DNA from: Dokdonia sp. 4H-3-7-5
GTDB taxonomy: Bacteria > Bacteroidota > Bacteroidia > Flavobacteriales > Flavobacteriaceae
Reading direction: 5' to 3'
DNA: 64,000 nt
NCBI RefSeq assembly: GCF_000212355.1
Contig: NC_015496.1
Span: 3,008,001 to 3,072,000, forward strand
The notes beneath the pieces were generated by a model that saw only the letters and a program-made list of their open reading frames with translations, was not told the DNA's origin and did not search any database. The position numbers were made by a program, and so were the translations under genes. Positions 1,423-62,879 of the stretch are shown piece after piece; the stretch's first letter is position 1; each line of letters begins with the position of its first letter.

Positions 1423-1438
1423 TGCTTTTGCGAAAGCG
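1423..1438. repeat. Iterated palindrome, one-mismatch copy
   Basis: TGCTTTTGCGAAAGCG followed by TA. It differs from the consensus CGCTTTCGCGAAAGCG by a C-to-T change in the left arm and lies upstream of the helicase start. Confidence 0.6.
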
Positions 1439-1510
1439 TACCGCAAGAATTCTTGACACAATTTTAAAAATTATGTCGAATTTCAGATAAATGAATGAAA
1501 GTGAATGTCT

Positions 1511-2020
1511 TTATGATGGATCTGCTGCTTCATCAAACAAAGCTGCATTAGGCCACTTTCCATCCTCGGCTAGTGAAACTATGCCTTCTATTCGTTCGCC
1601 AAGATCCTCTAATAAATGATGATATGTAACATACTGCACGAGTTCTTTAAAGGAATTGAGCATACTTTTATAAAACGCATCTGGAAGTCCTGGACTAGAT
1701 TGTTCAAAAGTCTGTGCTATTTCAATATTAAAAATCATCACATCAGAAAGCAACAGCGGGTTCATACCTAAAGTTTTAAAGTGCTTGATATACTTCTGTG
1801 CAATAGAACGTCTTTTTCTAGGGCGTTTACGTCTTGTGGGAAAATACTCGTTACTTATTTTAATTTTTGCCTCGTCTACGAGTTTGTCTTCTTTAGGATT
1901 AAATACAAAGTCATAATAGGTCTTAACCTCAGGTATACGCTCATAAAGCTCTATAATTTGCTCTTGCAATTCTGCATTGCTTAGTGTGGAAATTTGCTTT
2001 TTTAACGCCCGTTTGCTCAT
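1511..2020 (-). CDS. Conserved hypothetical protein, DUF6155-like
   Basis: 169 residues, cytosolic, no signal peptide or membrane segment. The start MSKRALKKQISTLSNAELQ, the segment YYDFVFNPKED and a basic stretch (TRRKRPRKRR, about residues 62-71) recall a small uncharacterised family (DUF6155, from memory). The basic patch could contact nucleic acid, but that is inference. It runs in the same direction as the helicase downstream, separated by about 140 bases that hold a repeat copy, so co-transcription is possible. It is divergent from the next gene. Function unknown. Confidence 0.8.
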   Translation of the reverse strand: MSKRALKKQISTLSNAELQEQIIELYERIPEVKTYYDFVFNPKEDKLVDEAKIKISNEYFPTRRKRPRKRRSIAQKYIKHFKTLGMNPLLLSDVMIFNIEIAQTFEQSSPGLPDAFYKSMLNSFKELVQYVTYHHLLEDLGERIEGIVSLAEDGKWPNAALFDEAADPS

Positions 2021-2130
2021 TGCTAATTGATTACTTATTGCGAATTTATAATAAAAAATAGTCGTAAAAAGCGAATCAAAAACCTATTTTTGCAACAATA
2101 CCAACTTCATATATAAATCATCATTTTACA

Positions 2131-2514
2131 ATGAATACACTTCAAGATAGTAAAGCCGTAAACTTGATCAAAAAACTCATAGGAGATGTAGCTCAAAACG
2201 GAATTATAACAAATACAGTGGTTGAAGACCTTAAAGCACTTCGCCCACATACTATTACAGAGCAACTACCTTTATTAGCCAAAGCGACACGCCTTGCCGC
2301 TGAACACATAGAGGAAACAGGAACTTTTGCAATTCCTATCCCTGCAGATGATGATATTGAAGATGAAAATGAAGAAATTATTGCAGCTGCAGATCCTGCC
2401 GAAAGCACTCCGGAAGAAAGCTTACACTACTTCTTTTGCTTAATAAGAGATGTAGATAAAAAAACAAATGAAGACGAATTACGTGAATACGTAAAGGCGT
2501 TAAGAGAGTACTAG
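2131..2514 (+). CDS. Conserved hypothetical acidic protein
   Basis: 127 residues, not recognised as a named family. It is soluble and predicted helical, with a strongly acidic middle (DDDIEDENEE, about residues 73-82) and a C-terminal helix rich in charged residues. No catalytic motif is visible. A -7-like box TATTTTTG lies at 2085-2092 and a clear terminator follows the stop, so it looks like a single-gene transcript. The reading frame is uninterrupted and divergent from the neighbouring DUF6155-like gene. Confidence 0.75.
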   Translation: MNTLQDSKAVNLIKKLIGDVAQNGIITNTVVEDLKALRPHTITEQLPLLAKATRLAAEHIEETGTFAIPIPADDDIEDENEEIIAAADPAESTPEESLHYFFCLIRDVDKKTNEDELREYVKALREY

Positions 2515-2543
2515 TATACAATTACTCTTTATCAATATCATAA

Positions 2544-2573
2544 AAAAGCCACTCGATTGAGTGGCTTTTTTTT
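2544..2573 (+). terminator. Rho-independent terminator
   Basis: Stem AAGCCACTC / GAGTGGCTT with loop GATT, followed by a run of T. It ends the acidic-protein transcript; the A-run on the left could also let it work on the minus strand. Confidence 0.85.
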
Positions 2574-2611
2574 ATAACAAAATATTGTAGTTCAAATTGT
2601 AATTGAGAAGA

Positions 2612-2923: not shown

Positions 2924-2974
2924 AAGTATATTAAATATAATACTTTAAGCTAATCAAATAACATTCCAAAATTA

Positions 2975-3571: not shown

Positions 3572-3673
3572 GAGTGCAATTTATTTTTTTTGTTTAATCA
3601 AATATACTATTTATTAAACATTTTTATTTCTCTATTTAACTTTTTATTTGGAGTTTTCTTAGAATCTCACGGT

Positions 3674-3681
3674 TAGATTTG
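3674..3681 (+). promoter_or_regulatory. Putative -7 element of the DUF5916 gene
   Basis: TAGATTTG matches the Bacteroidota TAnnTTTG box. A TTTG at 3647-3650 sits 23 bases upstream, slightly longer than usual spacing. It is 22 bases before the ATG. Confidence 0.4.
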
Positions 3682-6894: not shown

Positions 6895-6910
6895 CGCTTT
6901 CGCTAAAGCG
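6895..6910. repeat. Iterated palindrome, one-mismatch copy
   Basis: CGCTTTCGCTAAAGCG between lolD and the TIGR02757 gene; one G-to-T change breaks perfect symmetry. 34 bases upstream of the next ATG. Confidence 0.7.
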
Positions 6911-9027: not shown

Positions 9028-10959
9028 ATGCAGTTTAGACATCCAGAACTCCTTTATGCACTGTTCTTACTGCTTATCCCTATCCTCGTTCACTTATTTC
9101 AACTTCGTAAGTTTAAGACAGAAGCGTTTACAAATGTTGCCTTTCTTCAAAAGCTCAACATTCAAACTCGTAAGAGTAATTCCATAAAGAAATGGCTCGT
9201 GTTATTGTCTCGTATGGCTGCAATTGCTGCAATTGTGCTAGCATTTGCTCAACCATTTATCACACAATCAGATAGCGCAACCCGAGAAAAGGAAACTATC
9301 ATTTATTTGGATAACTCATTCAGTATGCAAGCAAAGGGTTCTTCTGGACAATTGCTACGCACGGCCACCCAAGATATTATTACTAATATTCCCGAGGATC
9401 AAACCTTCACTTTAATTACAAATACAGATACGTATAGAAATACCACTGTCAAAAACATGCGTAACGAGTTGCTACAACTACCATATGCAGCATCACAGTT
9501 ATCTGAAACTGCCATAACACTCAGAGCTCAGAAAGAATTTTCTAGAGACCAATCAAAAGATAAGAGGCTCATTATGATTTCTGACTTTCAGGATAATGGT
9601 GAGGCGTATCAACTACAAACAGATGGTGTAGAAAAACATTACGTGCAGCTCCAGCCTGTCATAAAAAACAATGTAAGTATAGATTCCGTTTTTATATCAC
9701 AAAGAAAATCAGGAAGCATAGCCCTTACTGTAGCGCTTTCAGCAGGTGAAAAGAAAGATATAAATACTGCCGTTTCTCTATACAACGGTGATCAATTACT
9801 GGCTAAGGGAACAGCATCTTTTGATAGCGAACTAACGACTACCGTAGTTTTTGATATAGACACAAAAGAAGAAATCGCAGGGCGTATCGTCATTGAAGAT
9901 CCCCTACTCGCTTTTGATAACACCATGTTTTTTAACATTAATAAAAGTCAGCCCATAAAAGTACTCGCAATAAATGGTGCAAACTCAGATTATTTGTCAC
10001 GTATTTTTACGGCTCCAGAGTTTGAGTATAAAAGCACAAACATTAAGAATCTGGATTATAGCAGCATACCAGATTTTAATTATATCGTTATAAATCAAGT
10101 TTCAGAAATAGGCGTATCTCTTAGTGGTGCTTTGAACGCTTTCGCGAAAGCGGGAGGAATTACCACCATTATTTTAGATTCAAATGCAGATGCGACTAGT
10201 TACAACAATGCGTTAAGCAGTTTAGGAAACTTTGATATCTCAAAAAGTGAAACTACCAAGCGATTAGTAACCACCATCAATTATGACCATCCTGTTTATA
10301 AAGATGTGTTTGATGCAAGAATAAAAAACTTTCAATATCCGTCCGTTTCAAAGTCTTTTGCCATACAAGGTGGAGATGCGTTACTTCGTTTTGAAGATGG
10401 AAGTCCTTTCTTGTCTTATTCTTCAAATTTCTTTGTAATCTCTGGAGGTATAGATGTAGCAAATTCAAACCTCCAAAGTTCGCCGCTCATAGTCCCTACA
10501 TTTTACAATATGTCGCGACAGAGCTTGCAGTTGCCACGATTATATATGCCTGTAGGTAAAAACACAACATACGACATACCTGTCGCGCTTCAAGAAGATG
10601 ATATTTTAAGTCTGGAAGACATGTTAGACCGCTCAAATACACTTATTCCTCTGCAACAATCCAAAGGAAATAAAGTACAAATTACAACGAGTGACTCGCC
10701 ATCTAAAGCAGGTATTTACAATATTAAGCTATCAGATAATACGGTACAGCAAGTCAGTTATAATTACAGTCGCAGTGAAAGCACATTACGATATGCAGCA
10801 TTAAACACGGGTGCTACAGATCATTATAACACCTCTGTAGAAGATCTTTTTGACGAATTCAAAACAGCAGATAGTGTCCAATCGCTTTGGAAATGGTTTG
10901 TTATTTTTGCCTTGTTATTCCTAGTACTAGAAATCTTGATTTTAAAATTCTATAAATGA
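9028..10959 (+). CDS. BatA/VWA-domain membrane protein
   Basis: 643 residues. The N-terminus is the double-transmembrane BatA-type module (FRHPELLYALFLLLIPILVH, then a second helix at about 55-75), followed by a von Willebrand A-like domain whose MIDAS motif D-x-S-x-S is present as Asp95, Ser97 and Ser99 (DNSFSM). A long beta-rich region follows and a final helix anchors the C-terminus (WFVIFALLFLVLEILIL). Similar proteins occur in aerotolerance (Bat) settings, but no other bat gene is here. The gene carries a palindrome copy at 10137 read as AFAKA and overlaps the next start by four bases (ATGA). Confidence 0.85.
   Translation: MQFRHPELLYALFLLLIPILVHLFQLRKFKTEAFTNVAFLQKLNIQTRKSNSIKKWLVLLSRMAAIAAIVLAFAQPFITQSDSATREKETIIYLDNSFSMQAKGSSGQLLRTATQDIITNIPEDQTFTLITNTDTYRNTTVKNMRNELLQLPYAASQLSETAITLRAQKEFSRDQSKDKRLIMISDFQDNGEAYQLQTDGVEKHYVQLQPVIKNNVSIDSVFISQRKSGSIALTVALSAGEKKDINTAVSLYNGDQLLAKGTASFDSELTTTVVFDIDTKEEIAGRIVIEDPLLAFDNTMFFNINKSQPIKVLAINGANSDYLSRIFTAPEFEYKSTNIKNLDYSSIPDFNYIVINQVSEIGVSLSGALNAFAKAGGITTIILDSNADATSYNNALSSLGNFDISKSETTKRLVTTINYDHPVYKDVFDARIKNFQYPSVSKSFAIQGGDALLRFEDGSPFLSYSSNFFVISGGIDVANSNLQSSPLIVPTFYNMSRQSLQLPRLYMPVGKNTTYDIPVALQEDDILSLEDMLDRSNTLIPLQQSKGNKVQITTSDSPSKAGIYNIKLSDNTVQQVSYNYSRSESTLRYAALNTGATDHYNTSVEDLFDEFKTADSVQSLWKWFVIFALLFLVLEILILKFYK
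10137..10152. repeat. Iterated palindrome, perfect 16-mer (coding)
   Basis: CGCTTTCGCGAAAGCG inside the BatA/VWA gene, read as NAFAKAGG. Confidence 0.95.
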
Positions 10960-13820: not shown

Positions 13821-14612
13821 TTATGTAGTTAAGGTAAGTCCGTCGTAAGCTAGAAAGACATTTTTGGGTAATTTTTGTTCGGCTTCTGCGTGAAAACCTA
13901 GATGATGACTTATGTGCGTAAGATAAGTGCGTTTAGGTTTGATTTTTGCCACGAGATCAAGCGCTTCCTCTACATTAAGATGTGTATAATGCGCTTCTTC
14001 CCTCAAGCAATTTAACACGAGAATATCTAATCCTTGTAATTTTTCAATCTCGTCATCTGCAATAGTCTTAACATCTGTGAGGTAAGCAATATCTTGAAAA
14101 CGATATCCAAAGACTTGCAATGATCCATGATATGCTTCAATAGGCTGCACTTCGATATTACCTAATGTAATAGATACACCATTTACAACTTCTTTTGAAG
14201 CTACACTAGGTGCTCCTGGGTATCTATTTTCTGTCGTAAAAATGTAATCAAAACGTTCGGCAAGAGTTTTCAAAACTCGTTTATGAGCATAAATAGGCAT
14301 ATCACCTTGTCTAAAAACAAAAGGTCTTATGTCATCCAGCCCAGCAACGTGATCGGCATGTTCATGCGTTAATAATATACCATGCAAGGGCGCTGGATCT
14401 CCTTCGGTTGTGCGCTTTCGCGAAAGCGTACTCAACATTTGTTGTCTAAAATCTGGACCACAATCTATTACATAATTATAATCTTCCCATTCTATTAGAA
14501 CAGAAACACGTAATCTTTTATCCCTAGCATCTGTGCTTAAACACACGGGATGTGTGCTTCCTATTACAGGAATTCCTTGTGATGTGCCAGTACCGAGAAA
14601 GGTGATTTTCAC
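13821..14612 (-). CDS. MBL-fold metallo-hydrolase (PhnP-like)
   Basis: About 263 residues from the GTG at 14612. The core motif THEHADHVAGLDD binds two metals; ITFLGTGTSQGIPVIG at the start and LTDVKTI and LTHISHH further on match the PhnP/phosphodiesterase branch of the metallo-beta-lactamase superfamily. PhnP itself cleaves cyclic ribose phosphates, but no phn genes are here, so the substrate is open. The frame also extends to a GTG at 14642; I prefer 14612 because the family begins with MKITFLGTG. A palindrome copy within the gene adds the residues TLSRKR next to the metal-binding loop. Confidence 0.88.
   Translation of the reverse strand: MKITFLGTGTSQGIPVIGSTHPVCLSTDARDKRLRVSVLIEWEDYNYVIDCGPDFRQQMLSTLSRKRTTEGDPAPLHGILLTHEHADHVAGLDDIRPFVFRQGDMPIYAHKRVLKTLAERFDYIFTTENRYPGAPSVASKEVVNGVSITLGNIEVQPIEAYHGSLQVFGYRFQDIAYLTDVKTIADDEIEKLQGLDILVLNCLREEAHYTHLNVEEALDLVAKIKPKRTYLTHISHHLGFHAEAEQKLPKNVFLAYDGLTLTT
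14413..14428. repeat. Iterated palindrome, perfect 16-mer (coding)
   Basis: CGCTTTCGCGAAAGCG plus TA, in the metallo-hydrolase gene, read on the minus strand as TLSRKR. Confidence 0.95.
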
Positions 14613-17215: not shown

Positions 17216-17229
17216 CATAGCAATGTTAT

Positions 17230-17244
17230 GCTTTCGCGAAAGCG
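17230..17244. repeat. Iterated palindrome, perfect 15-base copy
   Basis: GCTTTCGCGAAAGCG, flanked by T and TA, in the divergent gap between bcp and nth. Confidence 0.95.
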
Positions 17245-17362
17245 TAAACTATCACATCTAGTGAAAGCATTGAATTATAAAGTTACGAGTTCTCGCAATT
17301 ACAATAAAGGAATACGTTTAAGCTTTATGGATTACACCATAAAGAATAATTATGCACACCAT

Positions 17363-19106: not shown

Positions 19107-21902
19107 ATGCTTATAGACGTTAAGGATGTTAATCCTAAGAAGAATATTATCATTAAGGGTGCCAAACTGCACAATCTTAAAAATATTAATGCAGTAATTC
19201 CTCGTAACAAGCTCGTTGTAATCACGGGACTTTCTGGGTCTGGTAAATCTTCTCTAGCTTTTGATACCCTTTACGCAGAGGGACAGCGCAGGTACGTGGA
19301 GAGCCTCTCCTCCTATGCTCGCCAGTTCTTGGGCAGACTTGATAAACCTAAGGTAGATTATATAAAAGGAATTGCTCCAGCCATTGCCATCGAGCAAAAG
19401 GTAAATAGTACAAACCCTAGATCTACAGTAGGTACAACGACGGAGATTTATGATTATTTGAAGTTACTTTTTGCCCGTATAGGTAAGACATATTCTCCTG
19501 TTTCCGGAAATGAAGTTAAAAAGGATACAGTATCAGATGTGGTTGCTCATGTTTCCGCTTTCGCGAAAAGAGAAAAACTACTCCTACTCGCTCCTATTCA
19601 TTTAGAAAAAGGAAGAAAAATAGAATCTAAATTACAAGCCTTATTACAACAAGGATATTCACGTATACAAGTAAAGGGCGAAGTAAAACGTCTAGATGAA
19701 GTTGCTGAAATAGGAAGCAAACTGAAAGCAAAAGATGTACTACTCGTTGTAGATAGAATTATTAATAATCCAGAAGATGAAGACTTTATAAACCGACTTT
19801 CAGATGCGGTACAAACGGCATTTTTTGAAGGAAAGGGCGAACTATTTATAGAAAAGCTAGCAGATAATTCTCGTCGCCAATTTTCAAATAAGTTTGAGCT
19901 TGATGGAATTACTTTTTTAGAACCTAATGTTCACTTATTCTCCTTTAACAATCCTTACGGTGCATGCCCTACTTGCGAAGGTTATGGTGATGTAATAGGA
20001 ATAGATGAAGATCTTGTAGTACCTAATACTGGACTATCAATCTACGAGAATGCTGTATTCCCTTGGCGTGGTGATAGCATGAGCCATTATCGTGACCAGC
20101 TAGTAAATCGTGCTTATAAATTTGATTTTCCTATCCATAAGCCTTGGTTTGAGTTAACTCCAGAGCAACAACAGCTTGTTTGGGACGGAAATAAAGAATT
20201 TGATGGGCTCAATAAGTTCTTTAAATTCTTAGAATCTAAGGCATATAAAATTCAGAACAGAGTAATGCTATCGCGCTATCGCGGTAAGACAAAATGTAAC
20301 ACTTGTAAAGGAAAGCGTCTACGCCCTGAAGCGACTTATGTAAAAATAGGTGGTAAAAATATCGTTGACTTAGTAGAGCTACCACTAGACGAAGTAGCAG
20401 CTTTCTTCAAAAGCCTAACGCTTAATGAGTATGATACTACGGTCGCAAAAAGATTACTTACAGAGATTACAAGTAGACTGAGTTTTCTTGAAAAAGTAGG
20501 GCTCAACTACCTTACGCTCAACAGAAAGTCAAATACACTCTCTGGTGGTGAGTCGCAACGTATCAATCTTGCAACTTCTTTAGGGAGCAGTCTTGTAGGT
20601 TCTATGTATATTCTTGATGAGCCAAGTATAGGTTTACACCCTAAAGACACAGAAAAGCTCATTGAGGTGCTACAATCGCTACGCGATCTAGGTAATACGG
20701 TCATCGTTGTAGAACATGACGAGGATATCATGAAAAAAGCAGATTTTATCATTGATATTGGGCCAGAAGCAGGAACCTTTGGAGGAGATGTGGTTGCTGT
20801 AGGTGATTATGATGAGATTTTAAAAAGCGATTCTTTAACAGCAGGATACCTTAACGGAACATTAGAAATTGAAGTTCCTAAGAAGCGTAGAACTACAAAA
20901 TATTATGCCGAAGTTATTGGCGCTCGTGAAAACAACTTACAAAACGTAAACGTACGTTTTCCACTTGGTGTATTTACCGCTGTAACCGGTGTTTCTGGAA
21001 GTGGAAAATCTACCTTAGTTAGAAAAATATTATACCCTGCCATGCTTAAAGCAATAGGCGGCTATGGTGAAAAGGCAGGCCAATTTACAGAACTCAAAGG
21101 AAACTATGACAATATAAAAACCATAGAATTTGTAGATCAAAATCCGATTGGGAGATCTTCTAGATCAAATCCTGTGACTTACATTAAAGCTTACGATGAT
21201 ATTCGTAAATTATTTGAAAGTCAGAAGCTTAGCAAAATAAGAAACTATAAAGCAAAACACTTTTCTTTTAACGTAGATGGCGGAAGATGTGAGACTTGTA
21301 AAGGTGAAGGTGAAGTAACCATTGAGATGCAATTCATGGCAGATGTGCACTTAGAATGTGAAACTTGTAAGGGCAAGCGTTTTAAGAAAGAGGTACTCGA
21401 AGTACAATTCAATGATAAGAATATTGATGATATTCTCACGATGACTATTGATGATGCCGTGGCATTTTTTACAGCACATAATGAGACAAAAATAACTCGC
21501 AAACTTAAACCTCTACAAGATGTAGGTTTAGGGTATGTAACACTAGGACAAAGTTCCTCTACCCTATCTGGAGGTGAAGCGCAGCGTATAAAACTTGCAA
21601 GTTTCTTAGTAAAAGGAACCACTAAGGATAAAACACTGTTCATTTTTGATGAACCTACAACAGGCTTGCACTTTCATGATATTAAAAAACTCTTAGCTTC
21701 CTTTGAGGCACTTATTGCAAAGGGTCACTCTATTATTGTTGTAGAACACAACATGGATCTTGTAAAATGCGCTGACCATGTTATTGATATGGGGCCAGAA
21801 GGTGGAAAAAACGGAGGTATTCTAGTCGCTTCTGGAACTCCGGAAGAGGTCGCAAAAAACAAGAAGTCCTTTACTGGAAAATACTTGAAAGAAAAACTCT
21901 AG
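19107..21902 (+). CDS. uvrA: Excinuclease ABC subunit A
   Basis: Damage-recognition ATPase of nucleotide excision repair, working with UvrB and UvrC (not in this window). 931 residues. Two ABC modules: Walker [10 protein letters not shown] near residue 41 and GVSGSGKST near 630; signatures [15 protein letters not shown] and [15 protein letters not shown]; Walker [12 protein letters not shown]. Zinc-finger cysteines are seen in [20 protein letters not shown] and the pair CETCKGEG / [10 protein letters not shown] truncated palindrome copy at 19556 is translated as SAFAKREK in the variable signature-domain insert of the first module, where extra residues should be tolerated. Confidence 0.98.
19556..19570. 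repeat. Iterated palindrome, copy with altered right arm (coding)
   Basis: CGCTTTCGCGAAAAG in uvrA, read as SAFAKRE; it keeps the ten-base core. Confidence 0.85.
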
Positions 21903-22795: not shown

Positions 22796-22810
22796 GCTTT
22801 CGCGAAAGCG
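22796..22810. repeat. Iterated palindrome, perfect 15-base copy
   Basis: GCTTTCGCGAAAGCG then TA, 9 bases after one stop codon and 28 bases before the next ATG. Confidence 0.95.
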
Positions 22811-24584: not shown

Positions 24585-24599
24585 GCTTTCGCGAAAGCG
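24585..24599. repeat. Iterated palindrome, perfect 15-base copy
   Basis: GCTTTCGCGAAAGCG then TA, directly after the terminator T-run and 26 bases upstream of the TATCTTTA box of the M28 gene. Confidence 0.95.
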
Positions 24600-24662: not shown

Positions 24663-26048
24663 ATGTTAAACACGCATACTTCTACCCTATTTAGAGCTAC
24701 TAAAAGACTACCCATAACCTTAGGTTTTATGGTGTTTACACTACTTTTTTCTGTAGTAACAGCAAATGCACAAACCGATAAGAGAATCTACGAAATCATA
24801 GATGCAGTATCTGAAGATCGCTTGAGAGCAGATGTAAAGAAACTAGCAGATTTTGGAACGAGACACACCTTAAGCGATACCGTATCAAACACAAGAGGAA
24901 TAGGAGCTGCGAGAAGATGGATAAAAAACGAATTTGAAAAGACTTCGCAAAACTGTAATAACTGTCTAGATGTATTTTATCAAAGTAACCTTATAAAAAA
25001 AGGTGATAATGACCGTATCACAAAAGATGTGATGGTTGTAAATGTACTGGCAGTTCAAAAAGGAACTAAATATCCTAATCGCTATGTAATTATGAGTGGG
25101 GATATAGACAGCCGTATATCTGATCCTAATAATTATACAGATGACGCGCCGGGAGCAAATGATAATGCGAGCGGAATGGCTGGAACGATGGAAGCTGCAA
25201 GAGTACTTTCTAAATATTCTTTTGAGAACAGTATTATCTACGTAGGTCTTTCTGGTGAAGAACAAGGACTTTATGGTGGAAAAGGACTTGCTGCCCATGC
25301 TAAAGAAAAAGGATGGGAAATCATCGGGATTATGAATAATGACATGATAGGTAACATTGAAGGTGTAGATGGTGTTATTGATAACCGTACGTTTAGAATT
25401 TTCTCTGAGCCTGTACCGCCTACAGAGACAGAGCAGCAACGCAGAGCTCGCCGTTTTTATGGTGGTGAGGTAGATGGAATCTCTCGCCAACTAGCAAGAT
25501 TTATTTACAAAACTACACAAGACTACATGCCAGAAATGAACCCTATGATGGTGTACCGTTTAGATCGTTTTGGTCGTGGTGGTCACCACAGACCTTTTAA
25601 TGACGCTGGTTTTGCAGGTATCCGTATCATGGAAGCTCATGAAAACTACACACAACAACATCAAGATATACGTACAGAAAATGGCATTAATTACGGAGAT
25701 ACATTTGAGCATGTAAATTTCCCATATAACGCAAAGCTTACCGCTGTAAATGCGATTAATCTTGCAAGTATTGCTTGGGCTCCTCCTACACCTAAAAATG
25801 TAGGCATTGGTGGTATTGTAGAGGCAAACGCAAGATTACAATGGGATGAAGTTGAAGGTGCAGTTGCTTATAAAATATACTGGAGAGATACTACCTCTCC
25901 TACTTGGGACAATGCACGATTGATTACAGATGGAACATCGGCGACATTAAAAGGTATTGTTATAGACAATTTCTTCTTTGGCGTTGCCGCTGTAGGTAAG
26001 GATGGTCATGAAAGTCCTGTTGCTTTTCCTAGCCAGATTATTAGATAA
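24663..26048 (+). CDS. Secreted M28-family metallopeptidase
   Basis: 461 residues: signal peptide (about 1-36, ending TANA before QTD), M28 zinc aminopeptidase-like domain and a C-terminal fibronectin III-like domain (about 375-461). Metal region: GDIDSR, APGANDNASG, GLSGEEQGLYGG and NNDMIGN are seen, and a late His in EAHENYTQQHQ. The first zinc ligand, normally His in GHxDS, is Asp147 (GAT) here, so catalysis by the usual two-zinc centre is uncertain; I believe related Bacteroidota proteins share this. It opens a cluster of four exported peptidases. Confidence 0.88.
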   Translation: MLNTHTSTLFRATKRLPITLGFMVFTLLFSVVTANAQTDKRIYEIIDAVSEDRLRADVKKLADFGTRHTLSDTVSNTRGIGAARRWIKNEFEKTSQNCNNCLDVFYQSNLIKKGDNDRITKDVMVVNVLAVQKGTKYPNRYVIMSGDIDSRISDPNNYTDDAPGANDNASGMAGTMEAARVLSKYSFENSIIYVGLSGEEQGLYGGKGLAAHAKEKGWEIIGIMNNDMIGNIEGVDGVIDNRTFRIFSEPVPPTETEQQRRARRFYGGEVDGISRQLARFIYKTTQDYMPEMNPMMVYRLDRFGRGGHHRPFNDAGFAGIRIMEAHENYTQQHQDIRTENGINYGDTFEHVNFPYNAKLTAVNAINLASIAWAPPTPKNVGIGGIVEANARLQWDEVEGAVAYKIYWRDTTSPTWDNARLITDGTSATLKGIVIDNFFFGVAAVGKDGHESPVAFPSQIIR

Positions 26049-36191: not shown

Positions 36192-36688
36192 AAATCGACC
36201 ATTCTGTGAGCAAACGTATTCTTAAGTTCCCCCAGCTTAGGTGATATGTAACGCTCACAGAAGGGTTTATTTGGATTTTTCTTGTAATAATTTGTAATCT
36301 CTTCTCTTGAAGGATTAAAGTCTTTAAAAGGCAATACAGTAGTAATTATCTTTTCTTCGTTACTTTTTTGTAAACTATTTAATACCGCTTTCGCGAAAGC
36401 GTTATCCCGAACATTATAAACATACACTGCAGATCGATATGTATCTCGCATGCTGTGCATCTTTGTACTCTTATGCGTAAGAAGATGAATTTCGATTAAA
36501 ACCTCCAACGGTATGACGTTCCTATCATAATGCACAATAACAGCCTCAGAAAAGGAAGCGTTTATACCCTCTGAAGCAATGTACCCTTGCTCTACATTTA
36601 CAACACCCAGTAAGGACTGGAAGACCGCCTCTGTGCACCAGTGACAGCCGCCACCAAATCCTATTTTATGTATTTCCTTGTCTTGCAA
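36188..36688 (-). CDS. msrA: Peptide-methionine (S)-S-oxide reductase, divergent
   Basis: Repairs oxidised methionine in proteins. 166 residues from a TTG at 36688, placed exactly after the TAA of mqo. The catalytic Cys is in GGGCHWCTEAVFQ; the usual GCFWC has His for Phe. Glu (E of TEAVF), and the THKSTKMHSMRDTYRS segment, which aligns with HDPTxxNxQGxDxGxQYRS, are recognisable but diverged. Because mqo and msrA abut, they should be one transcript with translational coupling. A palindrome copy inside the gene is read as NAFAKAV. Confidence 0.88.
   Translation of the reverse strand: MQDKEIHKIGFGGGCHWCTEAVFQSLLGVVNVEQGYIASEGINASFSEAVIVHYDRNVIPLEVLIEIHLLTHKSTKMHSMRDTYRSAVYVYNVRDNAFAKAVLNSLQKSNEEKIITTVLPFKDFNPSREEITNYYKKNPNKPFCERYISPKLGELKNTFAHRMVDF
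36386..36401. repeat. Iterated palindrome, perfect 16-mer (coding)
   Basis: CGCTTTCGCGAAAGCG in msrA, read on the minus strand as NAFAKAV. Confidence 0.95.
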
Positions 36689-38275: not shown

Positions 38276-38290
38276 CGCTTTCGCGAAAGC
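38276..38290. repeat. Iterated palindrome, 15-base copy
   Basis: CGCTTTCGCGAAAGC then C; right arm one base short. Upstream of mqo. Confidence 0.93.
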
Positions 38291-40037: not shown

Positions 40038-40152
40038 AACTCAAAAATAAGGTATGTATGTATTGTTTGGTCTGTTGGTTTGATAATTCTTGTACTATAA
40101 AAATCCCCTGGCTGTGACGTGATTTCTTTCTAATAATAGTTTGTTTCACATT

Positions 40153-40165
40153 TTCGCGAAAGCGA
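40153..40165. repeat. Iterated palindrome, partial copy
   Basis: TTTCGCGAAAGCG; full core and right arm, left arm lost. Between tamL and the FAD oxidoreductase. Confidence 0.88.
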
Positions 40166-40172: not shown

Positions 40173-42443
40173 TTAGAATGGATATCCAATAGCAAAGTTG
40201 AAAATAGGTTCGTCAAATTTGAAATCCCATCGCTCGCCCTCCGGTAATGATGGATCGTGAAAAGGAGCTGCGAGATCAAAACGAATCACAAAGCCCTGAA
40301 CATCTACTCTAAGTCCAAAACCACCGCCTATTCCTAATTCATTAATGAAATCTGAGGTGAACTTATCTTTACCTTCAAGATCTTCATTTTCTGTGCTATT
40401 CCATATGTTTCCAGCATCTACAAAAAAGGCACCTTTGAGATAACTGAAAATTGGGAAACGATACTCTGCATTTGCCTCTAGCCTGATGTTTCCTATTTGA
40501 TCAAAGAAGTTTCCGCTAGATTGGTTTCCAGAAGATGTTCCAGGCCCCAAAGAGCGTATTCTAAAGGCGCGCACACTATATGGCCCACCAGAATAGTATT
40601 GCTTTACAAATGGTAATATCTCTGAGTTGCCGTACGCATACCCATATCCTGCAAAGAGTCTCGTTGCGATTTTTTGCTCATTTGTAATATTAAAATGATA
40701 CCTAAAATCTACATCTAACTTAGCAAACTGTGCATATTCCAATCCTATAAATGTTTTATTTTGAGTGTCTGCATCATCTTTACCTAGCAAACTAATGGCG
40801 TTACCTGCAAGTTCAAAGTTAGAATTGAAAAATATTTGATGTGTTTTCTGGGTCTCTACCATCCCATTATACGTGAAGCTATAATTAAGTCCAGCAATAA
40901 ACTGCTGATCAAAACTCTGTCTTAACAAAGGATTTGCAGTGAGTATATCTTCAAACTCTGTCGTAGTATTAGAGAGTCTCGTATAGCTCACAGAAAGAGG
41001 ATTAATACGGTGTGTGACATATTTATTTGCATCCCACACATAACCAAATCCAGCATTACCAGACAATAAGGTGTATAATCTAGAACGGCTCAAATAATCT
41101 ACACCTAGTGCTGCAACCGTTTTTGGAATATTATACTCAAAAAAATCTGTTGAAATATCAATAGGAAATATCACTCTTGGGAATACGAGTTCGCTGGCCA
41201 GACCTAGCTCTATACTACTTAATGACTCTCCTCCTCCTAGTTGTACTTCGTATCCTGCAGATCCTGTAATATTAAGAATCTCCCCACCATTAAAGAGATT
41301 TCTATTGCTATAGGTTAGTGCTAGTCCAGGTCCAGCAAAATTATTAGACTTAGTTACTGCTTGCACTTCGGCTCTTAAGGCTCGTTTATTTAAAGGTGAT
41401 AAGTAAATATTTGCCTCAAGAATACCTAAACTATCTGTGCGCAAGCTATCAATCTCGTCATACTGGATATTTACAAATTTATAGGCTCCTATAGTAGACA
41501 GGCGTCGCGCAGTGTTACGGGAGACATCTGGATGATACAATTGTCCTTCTTCAAGTTGTACAAATGGCGCAAGGTATTTAGGTTTAAAATAAAGCTCTTC
41601 TTGAATAAAATTTAAACTATCAAAGCGAACCACATCAGATTGTAACGAGTCTTTGAGCGCATAATTAGGATACACATTTACCTTGCTTATTTTGTAAGGA
41701 ACAATGACCTTATTAGGCACATCCTTCTTAATCTTCAAGAACATATCAAAACGCTTATTGCTGTATTGATTGGTATCTATCTCAAATATTAAAAACGAAG
41801 GATTGAAGTTGTAATATCCTTTTCTTTTAAGGAGATAATCAATACGATCGCGCTCAAGTTTAAGATTAGACAAGTCATATCTCATGCCTTTTTCAAGCGG
41901 TGAGGAAGCCACCGTGCTTATCATCTCTCTATAAATAGGCGGTGATAACGTATCAAGTTGATACGTCTCCATGCGGTATGGCGTAGGTACTTTGAGGTTG
42001 TAAGTAATAGATGCTCTTTTTTTTGTCTCGCTTTCGCGAAAGCGTGAACTCACCGTACTATAGAAAAATCCGCGATTTTCTAGTCTGTTACGTAGTAATG
42101 ATTCTACTTCAAATTCTTCTACATCAGATTGATAAACAGGCTCCTCTCCTATCTTTTTATTAAGCCATTTATTGATTACTCCTGGTTTTTCACGCTGTGC
42201 TTTGTAATAAACACTTAAATAAGGATAACCTCCTAAGATTTTAGAATTAGGTGTAGGTCGCAGCACACCTTCAAGCTCTGTTTGTAGCGAACTTTGATTT
42301 GTGATGGTGCTATCTGGGGATATGACAATTTCGGCGCCAGTATATAAACGTTCTCCCTCTGGAATGTACTTTTCAACACTACACGACGCGCAAAAAGCGA
42401 TCAAAACTAGAGCTGAAAAATATGTAGATAATCGGTATTGCAC
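40173..42443 (-). CDS. tamL: Translocation and assembly module lipoprotein TamL
   Basis: 756 residues. Omp85-family outer-membrane protein with a lipoprotein signal (FCASC, lipidated Cys near 21), POTRA-like repeats (about 30-330) and a C-terminal beta-barrel (about 360-756) with the Omp85 motif VRAFRIRSLGPG and final strand FNFAIGYPF. In Bacteroidota TamL replaces TamA as the partner of TamB. It lies three bases after tamB, as expected for an operon. A palindrome copy is translated as SRFRESET inside the POTRA region. Confidence 0.92.
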   Translation of the reverse strand: MQYRLSTYFSALVLIAFCASCSVEKYIPEGERLYTGAEIVISPDSTITNQSSLQTELEGVLRPTPNSKILGGYPYLSVYYKAQREKPGVINKWLNKKIGEEPVYQSDVEEFEVESLLRNRLENRGFFYSTVSSRFRESETKKRASITYNLKVPTPYRMETYQLDTLSPPIYREMISTVASSPLEKGMRYDLSNLKLERDRIDYLLKRKGYYNFNPSFLIFEIDTNQYSNKRFDMFLKIKKDVPNKVIVPYKISKVNVYPNYALKDSLQSDVVRFDSLNFIQEELYFKPKYLAPFVQLEEGQLYHPDVSRNTARRLSTIGAYKFVNIQYDEIDSLRTDSLGILEANIYLSPLNKRALRAEVQAVTKSNNFAGPGLALTYSNRNLFNGGEILNITGSAGYEVQLGGGESLSSIELGLASELVFPRVIFPIDISTDFFEYNIPKTVAALGVDYLSRSRLYTLLSGNAGFGYVWDANKYVTHRINPLSVSYTRLSNTTTEFEDILTANPLLRQSFDQQFIAGLNYSFTYNGMVETQKTHQIFFNSNFELAGNAISLLGKDDADTQNKTFIGLEYAQFAKLDVDFRYHFNITNEQKIATRLFAGYGYAYGNSEILPFVKQYYSGGPYSVRAFRIRSLGPGTSSGNQSSGNFFDQIGNIRLEANAEYRFPIFSYLKGAFFVDAGNIWNSTENEDLEGKDKFTSDFINELGIGGGFGLRVDVQGFVIRFDLAAPFHDPSLPEGERWDFKFDEPIFNFAIGYPF
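42029..42044. repeat. Iterated palindrome, perfect 16-mer (coding)
   Basis: CGCTTTCGCGAAAGCG in tamL, minus-strand reading SRFRESE. Confidence 0.95.
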
Positions 42444-47614: not shown

Positions 47615-47630
47615 CGCTTTCGCGAAAGCG
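47615..47630. repeat. Iterated palindrome, perfect 16-mer
   Basis: CGCTTTCGCGAAAGCG, flanked by TA and TG, in the 213-base gap upstream of tamB. Confidence 0.96.
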
Positions 47631-49512: not shown

Positions 49513-49545
49513 AGTTTGTTATTTTATTTATTATTAATTGGTAGT

Positions 49546-49560
49546 TTTCGCGAAAGCGTA
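49546..49560. repeat. Iterated palindrome, partial copy
   Basis: TTTCGCGAAAGCGTA; left arm degraded. Between the YihY gene and the alcohol dehydrogenase. Confidence 0.88.
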
Positions 49561-52247: not shown

Positions 52248-53648
52248 ATGAATGAGACAGAGCCTACATATCATTGTGTTATAGACGTAGAAACTACGGG
52301 AAAAGGAATTAATGGCAATCGCATTACAGAAATATGTGCGGTACGCCTTAAAGATGGTGAAGTAGTAGATAAATTTACTTCACTAGTAAATCCTGAACAA
52401 TACATTCCGCCATTTATTACTAATCTTACGGGTATAGATGACGCTATGGTGGCAGATGCACCATTATTTAATGAAATCGCAGATCGAATTATTGAGATAT
52501 CGTCAGGAGCCATATTTGTAGCACATAACGTCACCTTTGATTTTAACGTGTTGCGTAGCGAGTTTAAGCGACTCGGCCATTCATTTACTAGAAAAAAACT
52601 GTGTACGGTGAGGCTTTCGCGAAAGCTTATACCTAGTCTCTTCAGCTATTCGTTAGGTAATCTTTGTGCCTCTATAGGAATTCCTCTTAACAATCGTCAC
52701 AGAGCCGAAGGTGATACAGATGCTACTGTAATTCTTTTTAAACGATTACTCACCCTCGATGAGGATGGCAAAGTAATGAGTTCCTTCCTCAACGTTCGCT
52801 CTAAAGAAGCCACGCTCCCACCTCATTTACCATCACGCATTATTCAAGAGTTACCAGAAACAGCTGGCATTTACTTGTTTAAAGATCGCGCTGGTAAAGT
52901 GATTTATGTGGGCAAGGCAATTAATATAAAAAAGAGAGTCCTCTCGCATTTTTACGATAAAAAGAATAAGGAATATTTATTAGGTCAAGAAACCTATCAA
53001 ATAGATTATGAAGTTACTGGAAATGAACTTTGCGCACTATTACTAGAATCTGAATATATCCAGCAATATTTCCCAAAGTTCAATAGAGCTCAAAAAATAC
53101 CCACAAGCAACTACTCTATTATATCGTATGAAAATAGAAAAGGTATCATACAGCTCGCGGTAGCCAAGACAAAATATAGACATACAGCAACTCAAAAAGT
53201 ATTTACTAGAGCCAAAGCTACAGAGCGACTCATGGAGCTTTGTGAGATGTATGAATTATGCCCACGTTTTTGCGGTTTGCAGGCAACCTTTAATGAGTGC
53301 TCACATTATAGTCTAAAAAATTGTAAAGGTATCTGTAGTAATAACGAATCTGTAACTGATTACAATCTACGCGTTCGTGAAGCATTACAATCCTTTGATG
53401 CAGAAAATGAGAGTTATATTATAAAAGAAGACGGTCGTACAGATAATGAAACAGCCTTCATATACATAGATAAAGGCGTTTATAAAGGTTTTGGCTTTGT
53501 ACCTGAGACAGAGCAAGTGAGTCATTTTGATGAAGTAGCCTCACATTTACTACCTAAAAAGAGCACGTATCATACAGACATTATATTGAGAAGTTATTTA
53601 CGTAGACATAAAAATCCGCATATTGTATCACTTGCTATTTCTGCTTAA
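52248..53648 (+). CDS. DnaQ-like 3'-5' exonuclease fused to a GIY-YIG (UvrC-like) domain
   Basis: 466 residues. N-terminal DEDDh exonuclease (about 6-170: CVIDVETTG for Exo I, HNVTFDFNVL for Exo II, HRAEGDTDAT for Exo III), then a GIY-YIG nuclease domain like UvrC N-terminus/Cho (about 200-285: AGIYLFKDRAGKVIYVGKA) and a C-terminal helical part with cysteines (FCGLQATFNECSHYSLKNC). Fusion of epsilon-like and Cho-like nucleases suggests DNA repair or processing. Palindrome copy encodes RLSRKLI between Exo II and III. The next gene starts three bases after the stop. Confidence 0.9.
   Translation: MNETEPTYHCVIDVETTGKGINGNRITEICAVRLKDGEVVDKFTSLVNPEQYIPPFITNLTGIDDAMVADAPLFNEIADRIIEISSGAIFVAHNVTFDFNVLRSEFKRLGHSFTRKKLCTVRLSRKLIPSLFSYSLGNLCASIGIPLNNRHRAEGDTDATVILFKRLLTLDEDGKVMSSFLNVRSKEATLPPHLPSRIIQELPETAGIYLFKDRAGKVIYVGKAINIKKRVLSHFYDKKNKEYLLGQETYQIDYEVTGNELCALLLESEYIQQYFPKFNRAQKIPTSNYSIISYENRKGIIQLAVAKTKYRHTATQKVFTRAKATERLMELCEMYELCPRFCGLQATFNECSHYSLKNCKGICSNNESVTDYNLRVREALQSFDAENESYIIKEDGRTDNETAFIYIDKGVYKGFGFVPETEQVSHFDEVASHLLPKKSTYHTDIILRSYLRRHKNPHIVSLAISA
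52613..52626. repeat. Iterated palindrome, 14-base copy (coding)
   Basis: GCTTTCGCGAAAGC in the exonuclease/GIY-YIG gene, read as LSRKL. Confidence 0.95.
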
Positions 53649-56023: not shown

Positions 56024-56332
56024 TAACTCTTTTCTCGTATTAAATGAAGTCGTTATAAGAATATCTCGTAACGCTCACGTTTACGCAGTTTAAAATACTA
56101 TTAAGTCTGTAAAAGATTTTTGAACTGTGTAACCTACCTTTTGATAAGGTATTCGTGAATATTTGTAAAGATACAAAAAATAATGTGATTTTTTAACTTT
56201 CGCGAAAGCGTAATTATGTACACACCCCACTATGACTTGTATTTAACACCATTTGTTATCCTTTTCTTATCAATGGGTTAAAGCCCATTTTATAACTATA
56301 ATATCTTCTTAACTTTATAAAAAACAAGAGAT
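56024..56332. other. Divergent intergenic region of about 300 bases
   Basis: Holds a minus-strand -7-like box (56166-56173), a palindrome copy at 56197 and presumably the promoter for the plus-strand gene. No further gene is seen. Confidence 0.6.
56197..56210. repeat. Iterated palindrome, 14-base copy
   Basis: CTTTCGCGAAAGCG then TA, lying in the -33 region of the putative cold-shock promoter. Confidence 0.92.
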
Positions 56333-59813: not shown

Positions 59814-59829
59814 CGCTTTCGCGAAAGCG
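59814..59829. repeat. Iterated palindrome, perfect 16-mer
   Basis: CGCTTTCGCGAAAGCG then TA, upstream of the ABC exporter and downstream of the Dabb lipoprotein gene. Confidence 0.96.
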
Positions 59830-60567: not shown

Positions 60568-61434
60568 ATGAGACAACTCAAAATCACCAAGCAGGTTACT
60601 AATAGAGAGACGAAATCCCTGAATAACTATCTTCAGGATGTGAGCAAGATTGATTTAATTACTGCCGAAGAAGAGGTTGAGTTAGCACAACGTATTCAAA
60701 AAGGAGACGAGAGAGCACTAGATGCTCTTACAAGAGCAAATCTTCGTTTTGTAATATCTGTAGCAAAACAATATCAAAATCAAGGTTTATCCCTTTCTGA
60801 TTTAATTAATGAAGGAAACGTTGGGCTTGTAAAAGCAGCAAAACGTTTTGATGAAACCAGAGGTTTCAAGTTTATCTCATATGCAGTATGGTGGATTAGA
60901 CAATCTATCTTACAAGCTATTGCAGAGCATGCACGTACGGTACGTCTTCCTCTCAATAAAATTGGTGAGATAAGTAAGATTAACAAAGCAATGGTTTACT
61001 TACAGCAGGTACACGAGCGTAAGCCTACCTCTGGAGAAATTGCAAAGTATCTTGACATCTCTGAGGAAAAAGTAAAAATCTCACTTAAAAACGTTAGTCG
61101 TAGTTTAAGTATGGATGCTCCTTTCGCCGAAGGTGAAAATGATAACAACTTATATGACGTTTTAAGTTCTAGCGAGTCACCTCGTCCAGATAGAGAGCTT
61201 ATGCAAGAGTCTTTAAGTATTGAGATCAACAGAGCGCTTGATACACTTACAGAGAAAGAAGCAGAGGTTGTACGTTTGAACTATGGTCTTGGTAATCAGC
61301 CAGCAATGACACTTCAAGAGATAGGCGATATTTTTGACCTAAGTCGTGAGCGTGTACGCCAGATTAGAGAGAAAGCTATCAAGAGATTGCGTCACACTTC
61401 TAAAAGTAAAATCTTAATGAAGTATTTAGGATAA
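60568..61434 (+). CDS. rpoD: Primary RNA polymerase sigma factor (RpoD/SigA)
   Basis: Housekeeping sigma. 288 residues, without the long region 1.1, which is the usual short form in Bacteroidota. Region 1.2 (about 18-50), region 2 (about 60-130: ALTRANLRFVISVAKQYQNQG, FKFISYAVWWIRQSI), region 3 and region 4 (about 225-280: TLQEIGDIFDLSRERVRQIREKAIKRLR). It recognises promoters of the TTTG / TAnnTTTG type seen in this window. The 239-base upstream gap suggests a long leader or several promoters. A terminator follows. Confidence 0.97.
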   Translation: MRQLKITKQVTNRETKSLNNYLQDVSKIDLITAEEEVELAQRIQKGDERALDALTRANLRFVISVAKQYQNQGLSLSDLINEGNVGLVKAAKRFDETRGFKFISYAVWWIRQSILQAIAEHARTVRLPLNKIGEISKINKAMVYLQQVHERKPTSGEIAKYLDISEEKVKISLKNVSRSLSMDAPFAEGENDNNLYDVLSSSESPRPDRELMQESLSIEINRALDTLTEKEAEVVRLNYGLGNQPAMTLQEIGDIFDLSRERVRQIREKAIKRLRHTSKSKILMKYLG

Positions 61435-61452
61435 TATCCTATTTTACAATAA

Positions 61453-61486
61453 AACATAAAAAAAGCCCGTTTTTACGGGCTTTTTT
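61453..61486 (+). terminator. Rho-independent terminator after rpoD
   Basis: Stem AAAAGCCCGT / ACGGGCTTTT with a T-run of six. Confidence 0.92.
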
Positions 61487-61763
61487 AGGTTAAGTAGGTT
61501 AGACATTAATGCTAGCTTCGGGGCCTAGACACTAAAAACTATTGTAAAATCAACTTATGAATTTGGGGATTCTAATTGACCATCTTTTAATGATGATTCA
61601 AATATAAAACCCTAAATTCAATCCCACAAGCTATTTGTGTATTTTATCGTGATTAAATGCATTTTATCGATATTAATATTAGATACATGTTAATGTCTGC
61701 TAATTAAGACTACAGATTGATATCTGGATTAAACCTTTAAGTACATTAGAAGTCTTATAATTT
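61487..61763. other. Gap between the rpoD terminator and the ECF sigma gene
   Basis: Strongly AT-rich, no open frame or clear RNA. The promoter of the ECF sigma module must lie here, but no TTTG/TAnnTTTG pair stands out. Confidence 0.5.
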
Positions 61764-62315
61764 ATAAAAACGCATCTCATAGAAGAGCAAGACCTTATAC
61801 ACGCATTACAGCAAGATCCCAATAATGGATCATTTGCTATATTACTTGATAAATATCAAAAGCCGCTGTATTGGCATATACGAGGGATTGTAAAAAATCA
61901 TGAAGATGCAGATGATGTGTTACAAAACGTTTTTATTAAAGTTTATAAGAGTATTAAAAACTTCAAAGAAGATAGCAAACTTTATACTTGGTTATATAGA
62001 ATTGCGACTAATGAATCGCTAACGTTTTTAAAGAAACGTGCTAGGCATTTACAAATTTCAAATGAAGAGCTTCAAACGCGCATTGTTGAGAACCTAGAAA
62101 GTGATGTCTATTTTAATGGAGACGACATACAACTAGCATTAGAAAAAGCAATAGCGCAATTACCAGAAAAACAACAGCTAGTCTTCCAGATGAAGTATCA
62201 TCAAGATATGAAATATGATGATATGAGTGAAGTACTAGGCACTTCTGTAGGAGCTCTCAAAAGTTCTTACCATATCGCTACAAAAAAAGTAACCGCCATA
62301 TTACAAGCAGATTAA
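61764..62315 (+). CDS. ECF-type sigma factor with no standard start codon
   Basis: About 183 residues if translation begins at ATA 61764, directly after an in-frame TAA. Regions 2 (LYWHIRGIVKNHEDADDVLQNVFIKVYKSI) and 4 (LPEKQQLVFQMKYHQDMKYDDMSEVLGTS) are complete. In the frame there is no ATG, GTG or TTG before GTG 61917, which would delete half of region 2. So either a rare ATA (or other non-standard) start is used, or there is a sequence error or a leader. The two genes after it look like its membrane partner and a periplasmic protein. Confidence 0.75.
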   Translation: MKTHLIEEQDLIHALQQDPNNGSFAILLDKYQKPLYWHIRGIVKNHEDADDVLQNVFIKVYKSIKNFKEDSKLYTWLYRIATNESLTFLKKRARHLQISNEELQTRIVENLESDVYFNGDDIQLALEKAIAQLPEKQQLVFQMKYHQDMKYDDMSEVLGTSVGALKSSYHIATKKVTAILQAD

Positions 62316-62351
62316 ACCTTTTGACTTTTTAAGAGTCTTATTTATAGAACC

Positions 62352-62879
62352 GTGAAAACAACAAACAACATACCGTCTAAAAGAGGTTTTAAAGTTCCTC
62401 AAGATTATTTCGACACTAGTCGAGAAGTAATTCTTGATAATATCACTTTAGAAGCATCATTATCTAGCTCAAGTAATGAGCGCTATGATATCCCTGATGG
62501 ATATTTTGAGAACTCTAAAAATGAAATACTTGCTACGCTTTCGCGAAAGCTAGAAGAAGAAAGCACACCAGTTCAAAAAACTGCTACTAAAGTAATATCT
62601 CTTAAAAGTTATTATTATTCAATTGCGGGAGTTGCGGCTGCCCTCCTACTCTTAGTAAGTATTGTTTGGTCACAACTAGACACAACGGCGGGAATCGAGA
62701 GTATTGCTATAGCAGAATATCTTGATGGCGAAGCAGGTGATCTTGAACAAATAGAATTTGCAGATTGGTTATCTGATGATGACATTGATGCGCTTCACAA
62801 CGATATTGCCTTAGACCAATCAGTTATTATCGACTATCTAGATGATCGCACAGATAGCTACCACTTTTACTTAGATTAA
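62352..62879 (+). CDS. Probable membrane anti-sigma-like partner of the ECF sigma factor
   Basis: 175 residues starting with GTG. Two short repeats at the cytosolic start, FKVPQDYFDTSREVIL (about 12-27) and YDIPDGYFENSKNEIL (about 46-61), then a single membrane helix (about 86-105) and a short acidic periplasmic part. Position directly after an ECF sigma gene and one-helix topology suggest an anti-sigma role; it has no zinc anti-sigma motif, so this is inference. A palindrome copy is read as TLSRKLEEE between repeats and helix. Next gene starts three bases later. Confidence 0.72.
   Translation: MKTTNNIPSKRGFKVPQDYFDTSREVILDNITLEASLSSSSNERYDIPDGYFENSKNEILATLSRKLEEESTPVQKTATKVISLKSYYYSIAGVAAALLLLVSIVWSQLDTTAGIESIAIAEYLDGEAGDLEQIEFADWLSDDDIDALHNDIALDQSVIIDYLDDRTDSYHFYLD
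62536..62550. repeat. Iterated palindrome, 15-base copy (coding)
   Basis: CGCTTTCGCGAAAGC in the putative anti-sigma gene, read as TLSRKLE. Confidence 0.95.

Follow-up and report, generated by a model that had tools for sequence, protein, structure and literature searches.

The genome of Dokdonia sp. 4H-3-7-5 carries hundreds of copies of a perfect palindrome, GCTTTCGCGAAAGC, which may be a tag for recognizing self-DNA that molecular drive keeps in place. Such a tag would work like an uptake sequence, although without the machinery known for those, and we assign this reading a probability of about 45%. In the 64-kb stretch analyzed here (bases 3,008,001–3,072,000 of the genome, hereafter the window), the 14-mer occurs in 15 exact copies and its ten-base core, TTTCGCGAAA, in 19 (Table 1). 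The first-pass annotation of this DNA had listed 15 14-mers and four core-only copies, and an exact recount gave the same numbers, all inside the span it had assigned. The two one-mismatch copies on its list are also present, with the core lost, but their positions (1423 and 6895) had been given one base low, as they start at 1424 and 6896. Genome-wide, the single contig of 3,389,993 bases holds 757 copies of the 14-mer, compared with 0 for a reversed-word control.

This abundance far exceeds chance. In a 464-kb sample of the genome, consisting of 20 stretches of 20 kb and the window, we counted 106 14-mers and 136 cores, against expectations of about 0.001 and 0.4 under Markov models of order 1–3, and of 0.007 and 2.3 under order 4. 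An order 5 model, which already holds much of the word, predicts 1.1 and 27.8. The excess proposed in the first-pass annotation is therefore real, and the genome-wide count places it well beyond the window. Over 564 kb, the mismatch spectrum of the 14-mer comprises 132 exact, 20 one-off, 26 two-off, 24 three-off, and 144 four-off matches, while a control palindrome of the same letters gives 0, 0, 3, 29, and 196, respectively. The core occurs about once per 3.3 kb.

We found no report of the 14-mer in the full-text literature, from whose coverage most subscription papers and all bioRxiv preprints are absent. The matches listed for iterated or over-represented palindromes, for uptake words of Flavobacteria and Bacteroidota, and for Dokdonia and Nonlabens contain no report of it either, and none of the papers containing the core string reports the word, as judged mostly from their titles and the opening of their abstracts. 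One of them, in its accessible part, describes words built on the core as significantly absent from the human genome (PMC8034619), which is probably just a matter of CpG scarcity. The initial remark that the palindrome resembles HIP1 or an uptake signal in abundance, with a different sequence and no known family, still stands.

Among the genomes searched, three genera are full of the word: the genus of strain 4H-3-7-5, Nonlabens (457–664 copies), and a genus that we label g210, represented by one genome (408 copies). Every genome searched outside these three has 0–19 copies. In a set of 59 genomes (18 of the own genus, 18 of other genera of the family, and 23 of other families of the order), all 18 genus members are full, with 369–905 copies in strain 4H-3-7-5 and its 17 congeners; the other genera of the family include one genome with 578 copies, one with 6, and 16 with none, and all 23 genomes of the other families have 0. 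Of 397 genomes of the family, six are full (strain 4H-3-7-5, one congener, three Nonlabens with 578, 664, and 609 copies, and the g210 genome), 74 have 1–19 copies, and 317 have none. Across the phylum, 395 genomes comprise that of strain 4H-3-7-5, 21 others with 1–6 copies, and the rest with none. Named counts include Nonlabens at 578, 457 (MAG_11), and 609, and Cytophagaceae bacterium SAT149 at 369; the latter is probably the same genome as our congener G005. Aquimarina spongiae, Salegentibacter, Christiangramia, Aequorivita, Maribacter, and Winogradskyella have 0 copies each. Compared with these six, Leeuwenhoekiella blandensis (G436) carries ten scattered exact copies in 4.2 Mb, which could have been left by a lost system or have come by transfer.

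The trees place the three genera in two lineages. A tree of 97 UvrA rows separates the motif genomes into two positions, with the own genus and g210 beside Leeuwenhoekiella and Nonlabens apart; two changes of motif state are needed on this tree, and two are forced by well-supported branches. A three-protein tree of 16 genomes likewise sets Nonlabens apart with a branch support of 99.6/98, with several weak branches elsewhere.

The consensus over 135 core sites extends to the weaker, symmetric 22-bp TTACGCTTTCGCGAAAGCGTAA, and the invariant part of the palindrome spans 10–14 bp. Among 169 cores, exact matches number 132 for the 14-mer, 77 for the 16-mer, 31 for the 18-mer, 21 for the 20-mer, and 6 for the 22-mer. 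The rightward continuation as GCGTA, pointed out in the first-pass annotation, holds as a tendency, since the consensus runs TTACGC...GCGTAA but only the 77 cores match the 16-mer. Beyond the consensus, the left flank is T/G-rich and C-poor and the right flank A/C-rich and G-poor. This bias declines steeply within about 25 bp of the core, leaving a slight remnant out to about 200 bp, and is alike in copies inside open reading frames (ORFs) and between genes, both in the 4H-3-7-5 genome and in a pool of Nonlabens, g210, and one congener. Considered separately, the 4H-3-7-5 genome, the congener, and Nonlabens show it strongly, with a left-flank C fraction of 0.05–0.08, and the G+C-richer g210 genome more weakly (0.165, 18 sites). 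A stem would be expected to covary along its length, while a site bound as duplex by a symmetric protein need not. Over 194 sites, pairing between mirrored flank positions exceeds that in shuffles at just two of 25 positions, 4 (P 0.008) and 24 (P 0.02). As the half-sites vary almost independently, the sequence pattern makes the palindrome look like duplex DNA read by a putative symmetric protein rather than a hairpin.

The copies are well conserved among congeners. Each of five congeners could be aligned at nine of the 19 window sites, the other ten lying outside the fetched or alignable congener DNA, and the core is kept in 9, 9, 7, 7, and 7 of these nine. In congeners G016 and G003, a single place aligns to two sites of the window (26130 and 29274), so that one of the seven in each is probably a paralogue. 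Counted in reverse, 10 of 12, 9 of 11, 7 of 9, 8 of 10, and 5 of 7 alignable sites of the relatives are kept in the 4H-3-7-5 genome. The two nearest relatives show no difference among 180 core bases compared, at sites picked for core presence in the 4H-3-7-5 genome, while the flanks 61–200 bp away differ by 5.9% and 11.2%. The site at 14414 is exact at the orthologous place in 8 of 14 genomes (G008, G007, G016, G003, G004, G013, G014, and G010); G281 is without the motif there, and five genomes gave no alignment. At the decayed uvrA site, the exact 14-mer is present in G013, G010, G014, and G230. Both nearest congeners have exact copies where the 4H-3-7-5 genome has the one-mismatch copies at 1424 and 6896, which indicates that the latter have probably decayed.

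Copies are also gained at the expense of protein sequence. Where the protein encoded at 25275–25316 reads LAAHAKE, three congeners have LAAFAKA, encoded by the exact word in an ungapped alignment. Of 21 UvrA rows from motif genomes, with Nonlabens MAG_11 counted on the motif side, 14 contain AFAK or TFAK as encoded by the palindrome, compared with 0 of 76 other rows, most of them from genomes not searched in full; two pairs of rows represent the same genomes. The seven motif-genome rows lacking it comprise six Nonlabens rows and one from congener G017, and many of the non-motif rows read like SFEEGEKLL. In these coding cases, the conserved repair protein UvrA included, the copies arise by substitution in place. 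One intergenic difference between strain 4H-3-7-5 and G016/G003 is a gap, for which insertion and deletion are both possible.

Coding DNA is depleted of the word. With ORFs called from ATG only (at least 90 codons, covering 82% of the DNA), 92 of 169 cores lie outside them, at a density about five times that inside; under a rule of three start codons, by which ORFs cover 84.5%, 68 of 136 do. The 77 in-ORF copies are read as A-F-A-K-A in 42 cases, L-S-R-K in 24, and F-R-E-S in 11. With the ATG-only rule, convergent gaps contain 1.97 sites per kb, divergent gaps 0.91 (13 sites each), and same-strand gaps 1.0–1.5, whereas the three-start rule gives 0.79 in convergent and 0.75 in divergent gaps (9 and 7 sites). 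Because the convergent excess depends on the ORF rule, no preference for gap orientation is secure.

The location of half of the copies between genes, together with the convergent excess under one rule, would be in line with a family of transcription terminators or RNA hairpins, or with a palindrome inserted many times as a mobile element of the repetitive extragenic palindrome (REP) or miniature inverted-repeat transposable element (MITE) kind. We regard this as very improbable. The near absence of covariation and the polarity of the flanks, T-rich upstream and A-rich downstream and so the reverse of a terminator, led us to reject a hairpin or terminator. Nearly half of the copies lie in ORFs, and mobile insertion was rejected for the coding copies seen, as their gains are ungapped substitutions. 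Beyond the weak 22-bp consensus, moreover, the copies share only a composition bias (RAYT transposases were not searched for).

The copies are spaced more evenly than by chance. In the 4H-3-7-5 genome the mean distance is 2.9 kb, with a coefficient of variation (CV) of 0.56, compared with 0.995 ± 0.065 for class-matched random placement and 0.865 ± 0.057 for a control placing one copy per gap. Only 6 of 143 distances are below 800 bp, against 37.6 ± 4.6 in the class-matched and 23.9 in the one-per-gap control, and none of 2000 class-matched simulations had as few. These two controls rule out even spacing as a by-product of the intergenic preference. Relative to uniform placement, Nonlabens has a CV of 0.52 versus 0.86 ± 0.12 (34 sites, nine stretches) and g210 one of 0.49 versus 0.84 ± 0.15 (18 sites, five stretches). 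The congeners give 0.46 versus 0.88 ± 0.06 over all 27 stretches (154 sites), with 4 of 127 distances below 800 bp against 27.5 expected, and 0.45 versus 0.88 over 19 of the 27 stretches alone; many of these stretches are orthologous to one another and are therefore not independent samples.

Such regularity could also reflect selection on chromosome structure, with an abundant dimeric nucleoid protein bound every few kb. We consider this organizing role unlikely, yet it is the main and serious rival, the methylation, Chi-like, and hairpin explanations being weaker. It would account for the even spacing in three genera and for cores in all 25 sampled 20-kb stretches of the 4H-3-7-5 genome (mean 6.0, variance 3.25), and it suits a symmetric site read as duplex, whose flanks are biased for about 25 bp in either direction. 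According to PMC1939737, Karlin et al. took the even spacing of the Haemophilus word to point to a function in replication, repair, or compaction; that paper itself describes the spacing of uptake sequences as significantly even but argues that it is less even than compaction needs. An organizing role would demand a measurable fitness effect from each of more than 750 sites, despite the amino-acid change in UvrA. Sites for Noc, SlmA, and MatP show regional exclusion, and we saw none across the 25 stretches. Noc/parS sites are, like the Dokdonia word, palindromes of TTTC and GAAA halves, but their halves stand four bases apart instead of two, and the Dokdonia word differs from them in its hundreds of copies and in having no ParB paralogue that tracks it.

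A search for a partner gene compared 10 motif genomes with 6 or 7 others, one of which is the Leeuwenhoekiella genome with 10 copies. The first-pass annotation had suggested looking for a DNA-binding or methyltransferase gene that tracks the palindrome; none of the four families examined for this, three of methyltransferases and ParB, does so. ParB is present in all genomes: nine of the 10 motif genomes have a single copy and G010 has two, and additional copies also occur in two genomes that are not full of the word, on which ground a ParB/Noc paralogue was rejected as partner. The printed DNA-binding stretch of ParB holds no change common to all motif genomes, and Nonlabens and some congeners differ in it at a few residues. 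Hits above the cut-off were found for PF01555 in 2/10 motif genomes and 2/7 others, for PF00145 in 5/10 and 5/7, and for PF02086 in 6/10 and 4/6; G281 has none of the three, and G000 none over the cut-off. N6/N4, C5, and D12 methyltransferases were thus rejected as universal partners, being patchy in the motif genomes (other methyltransferase families, such as PF02384 and PF07669, were not searched for). The secretin PF00263 was rejected on the same ground, with matches in only 4/10 motif genomes and 1/6 others and none in the 4H-3-7-5 genome (pilins and receptors were not searched for). The secretin-domain protein, of about 650–740 amino acids (L402–L406), is patchy, occurring in G004, G010, G017, and G281 and also in Aquimarina spongiae (G437). 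ComEC was found in 16/16 genomes, so that DNA entry through the inner membrane is possible.

These results also bear on a methylation site of the HIP1 kind, in which a solitary methyltransferase acting in repair or replication would modify the core (TCGCGA or CGCG). HIP1, GCGATCGC, is likewise a perfect palindrome iterated genome-wide within a lineage, here the cyanobacteria, and Elhai links it to methyltransferases in the accessible part of that work (PMC4390886). The Dokdonia word differs from HIP1 in sequence, is longer, and has a flank preference; a unit of 10–14 bp with a preference reaching about 25 bp exceeds what a methyltransferase usually reads. With none of the three methyltransferase families tracking the word, we consider such a site improbable.

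Copies outside the three genera are partly clustered, and pairs exactly 933 bp apart recur. Eight clustered-copy stretches from six genomes of six genera align mutually at 72–95% identity. This shared, motif-bearing region (L131–L138) lies in G127, G118, G141, G254, G376, and G029; the 933-bp pair recurs in four of these six genomes and also in G200. Nine proteins from its G127 copy are of kinds that serve metal efflux or metal resistance: RND pumps, membrane-fusion proteins, P-type ATPases, an outer-membrane efflux protein, a multicopper oxidase, and an ArsP-like permease. We read these stretches as DNA that may once have been resident in a motif host and later moved.

Two Nonlabens phages have no copy of the word and no TCGCGA in the 35,000 bases read from each. 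Chance alone gives no 14-mer in 70 kb, and this result therefore shows only the absence of host-like enrichment. Both phages encode an annotated DNA methyltransferase, at different genome places (L316 32699–33376 and L317 18039–18674). A scan of viral contigs returned at least 120 stretches with the word, 109 of them with a single copy and 11 with two or three. A signal of the Chi kind, read by a host recombination nuclease and protecting host DNA, would match the absence from these two phages and a density of about one per few kb. Chi sites are short and recognized in a single orientation, in contrast to the symmetric, nearly independent halves and flanks of the Dokdonia word, and we hold this explanation to be quite improbable.

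Dense words were also surveyed more widely, with palindromic ten-mers counted in 80 UvrA-anchored loci and every word of 9 or 10 bases in the 75 loci that measure at least 12 kb. The strongest non-motif words among those listed for the 75 loci look like tandem or simple repeats, and weaker ones are also present, such as CATTAAAAGA in Aquimarina loci. In the g210 genome, ACAACGGTCT occurs eight times in 20 kb (L139), against about 0.03 expected.

Table 1. Copies of the palindrome and related sites in the window (positions counted from its first base).
Feature	Position	Strand	Context
One-mismatch copy GCTTTTGCGAAAGC	1424..1437	.	exact in G007, G008
One-mismatch copy GCTTTCGCTAAAGC	6896..6909	.	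exact in G007, G008, G004
Exact 14-mer	10138..10151	.	inside ORF 9028-10959 (+)
Exact 14-mer	14414..14427	.	inside minus-strand ORF
Exact 14-mer	17230..17243	.	predicted start of ORF 17228-18034 (true start may be downstream)
Core TTTCGCGAAA, right arm decayed (GCTTTCGCGAAAAG)	19557..19570	.	inside uvrA
Exact 14-mer	22796..22809	.	between genes, 9 bp past stop codon
Exact 14-mer	24585..24598	.	between genes
Motif-free coding stretch (GGKGLAAHAKEKGW)	25275..25316	+	exact motif in G010, G014, G017, as LAAFAKA
Exact 14-mer	26130..26143	.	near ORF start, AFAKA frame
Exact 14-mer	29274..29287	.	near ORF start, AFAKA frame
Exact 14-mer	31952..31965	.	inside ORF 31046-33526
Exact 14-mer	36387..36400	.	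inside minus-strand ORF
Exact 14-mer	38277..38290	.	between genes
Core, left arm decayed (ATTTTCGCGAAAGC)	40150..40163	.	between genes
Exact 14-mer	42030..42043	.	intergenic (ATG-only ORFs); inside ORF 40173-42443 if GTG starts allowed
Exact 14-mer	47616..47629	.	between genes
Core, one arm mismatch	49544..49557	.	between genes
Exact 14-mer	52613..52626	.	inside ORF 52248-53648 (exonuclease/UvrC-like)
Core, one arm mismatch	56196..56209	.	between genes
Exact 14-mer	59815..59828	.	between genes
Exact 14-mer	62537..62550	.	intergenic (ATG-only ORFs); inside GTG-start ORF otherwise

In our view, the even spacing, the depletion in coding DNA, the conservation, and the in-place, protein-changing origin of the copies fit a self-DNA tag kept by drive better than selection on each site. 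We hypothesize that a putative dimeric protein of these genera binds the word and, once bound, would favor word-carrying DNA fragments in uptake or recombination. One tag per fragment would suffice, and even spacing would follow as drive saturated at the scale of fragments; the invariance at orthologous places would come from recombination overwriting decayed copies. At least in the 4H-3-7-5 genome, the tagged DNA would cross the outer membrane by another route than in Pasteurellaceae and Neisseriaceae. We also count the lack of the word in the two Nonlabens phages, and the presence of ComEC, in favor of this reading. Known uptake sequences are described, in the accessible part of one study, as relatively even, under-represented in coding and newly acquired DNA, and sufficiently explained by drive (PMC7811141). 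Within the Flavobacteriaceae, Riemerella columbina is naturally transformable and prefers its own DNA, and word counts up to 10 bp yielded only A-rich or T/A words in the part of that report available (PMC7965970).

The Dokdonia word resembles the uptake signal sequences (USS) and DNA uptake sequences (DUS) of Pasteurellaceae and Neisseriaceae in its hundreds of relatively even, coding-depleted copies, in its origin by in-place mutation, and in its restriction to few related lineages. USS and DUS are non-palindromic, in contrast to the perfect symmetry and symmetric flank bias found here, and they use a type IV pilus/secretin route, whereas the 4H-3-7-5 genome has no secretin match and an uptake role is only predicted. 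USS density, about one per kb in the portion of the source available (PMC7811141), also exceeds the one core per 3.3 kb in Dokdonia.

Several observations weigh against the tag reading. As far as the accessible text goes, known uptake words are not palindromic (PMC1939737), and we counted the symmetry of the word against an uptake role; given the interpretation of Karlin et al., even spacing does not single out uptake either. No secretin is seen in the 4H-3-7-5 genome and five of the other nine motif genomes tested, and the known type IV pilus route thus seems unavailable there. ComEC is equally present in 6/6 genomes not full of the motif and is therefore not discriminating, and no gene limited to the three full genera was found among the families tested (three methyltransferase families, secretin, ParB, and ComEC). 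The ratio of one-off to exact copies (20:132) is lower than that in Haemophilus. One viral contig, IMGVR_UViG_2617271332_000001 (L247), holds four exact copies in 39.8 kb; it is prophage-like, with head-protease and endolysin matches among eight proteins tested, which means that some phage-like DNA carries the word. Finally, two motif-poor stretches of the 4H-3-7-5 genome gave no clear mobile-DNA signal among ten proteins, of which one is a group II intron maturase and the rest are ordinary or without matches. The maturase ORF, of the group II intron reverse transcriptase type and 260 amino acids long, sits in a 10-kb stretch without the palindrome (L045 17832–18614, genome positions 2537832–2538614).

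More specifically, and still tentatively, the palindrome could be a symmetric duplex self-tag unlike any described, with a putative dimeric reader and biased recombination or uptake that would proceed without secretin or the tested methyltransferases. Such a tag would be carried by two lineages set apart in the trees, would be acquired by host-resident DNA, and would rewrite conserved proteins.

In the literature covered, Pasteurellaceae and Neisseriaceae are the only groups with described uptake words, and the function of HIP1 remains under debate. Another lineage, independent of these and with a word both strict and symmetric, would allow drive, chromosome structure, and methylation to be compared. 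If the palindrome is an uptake tag, it would show how Bacteroidota that lack a secretin choose DNA and would be of practical use in the transformation of these marine bacteria. Under any of these explanations, the word marks DNA once resident in these hosts and thereby aids the tracing of gene transfer.

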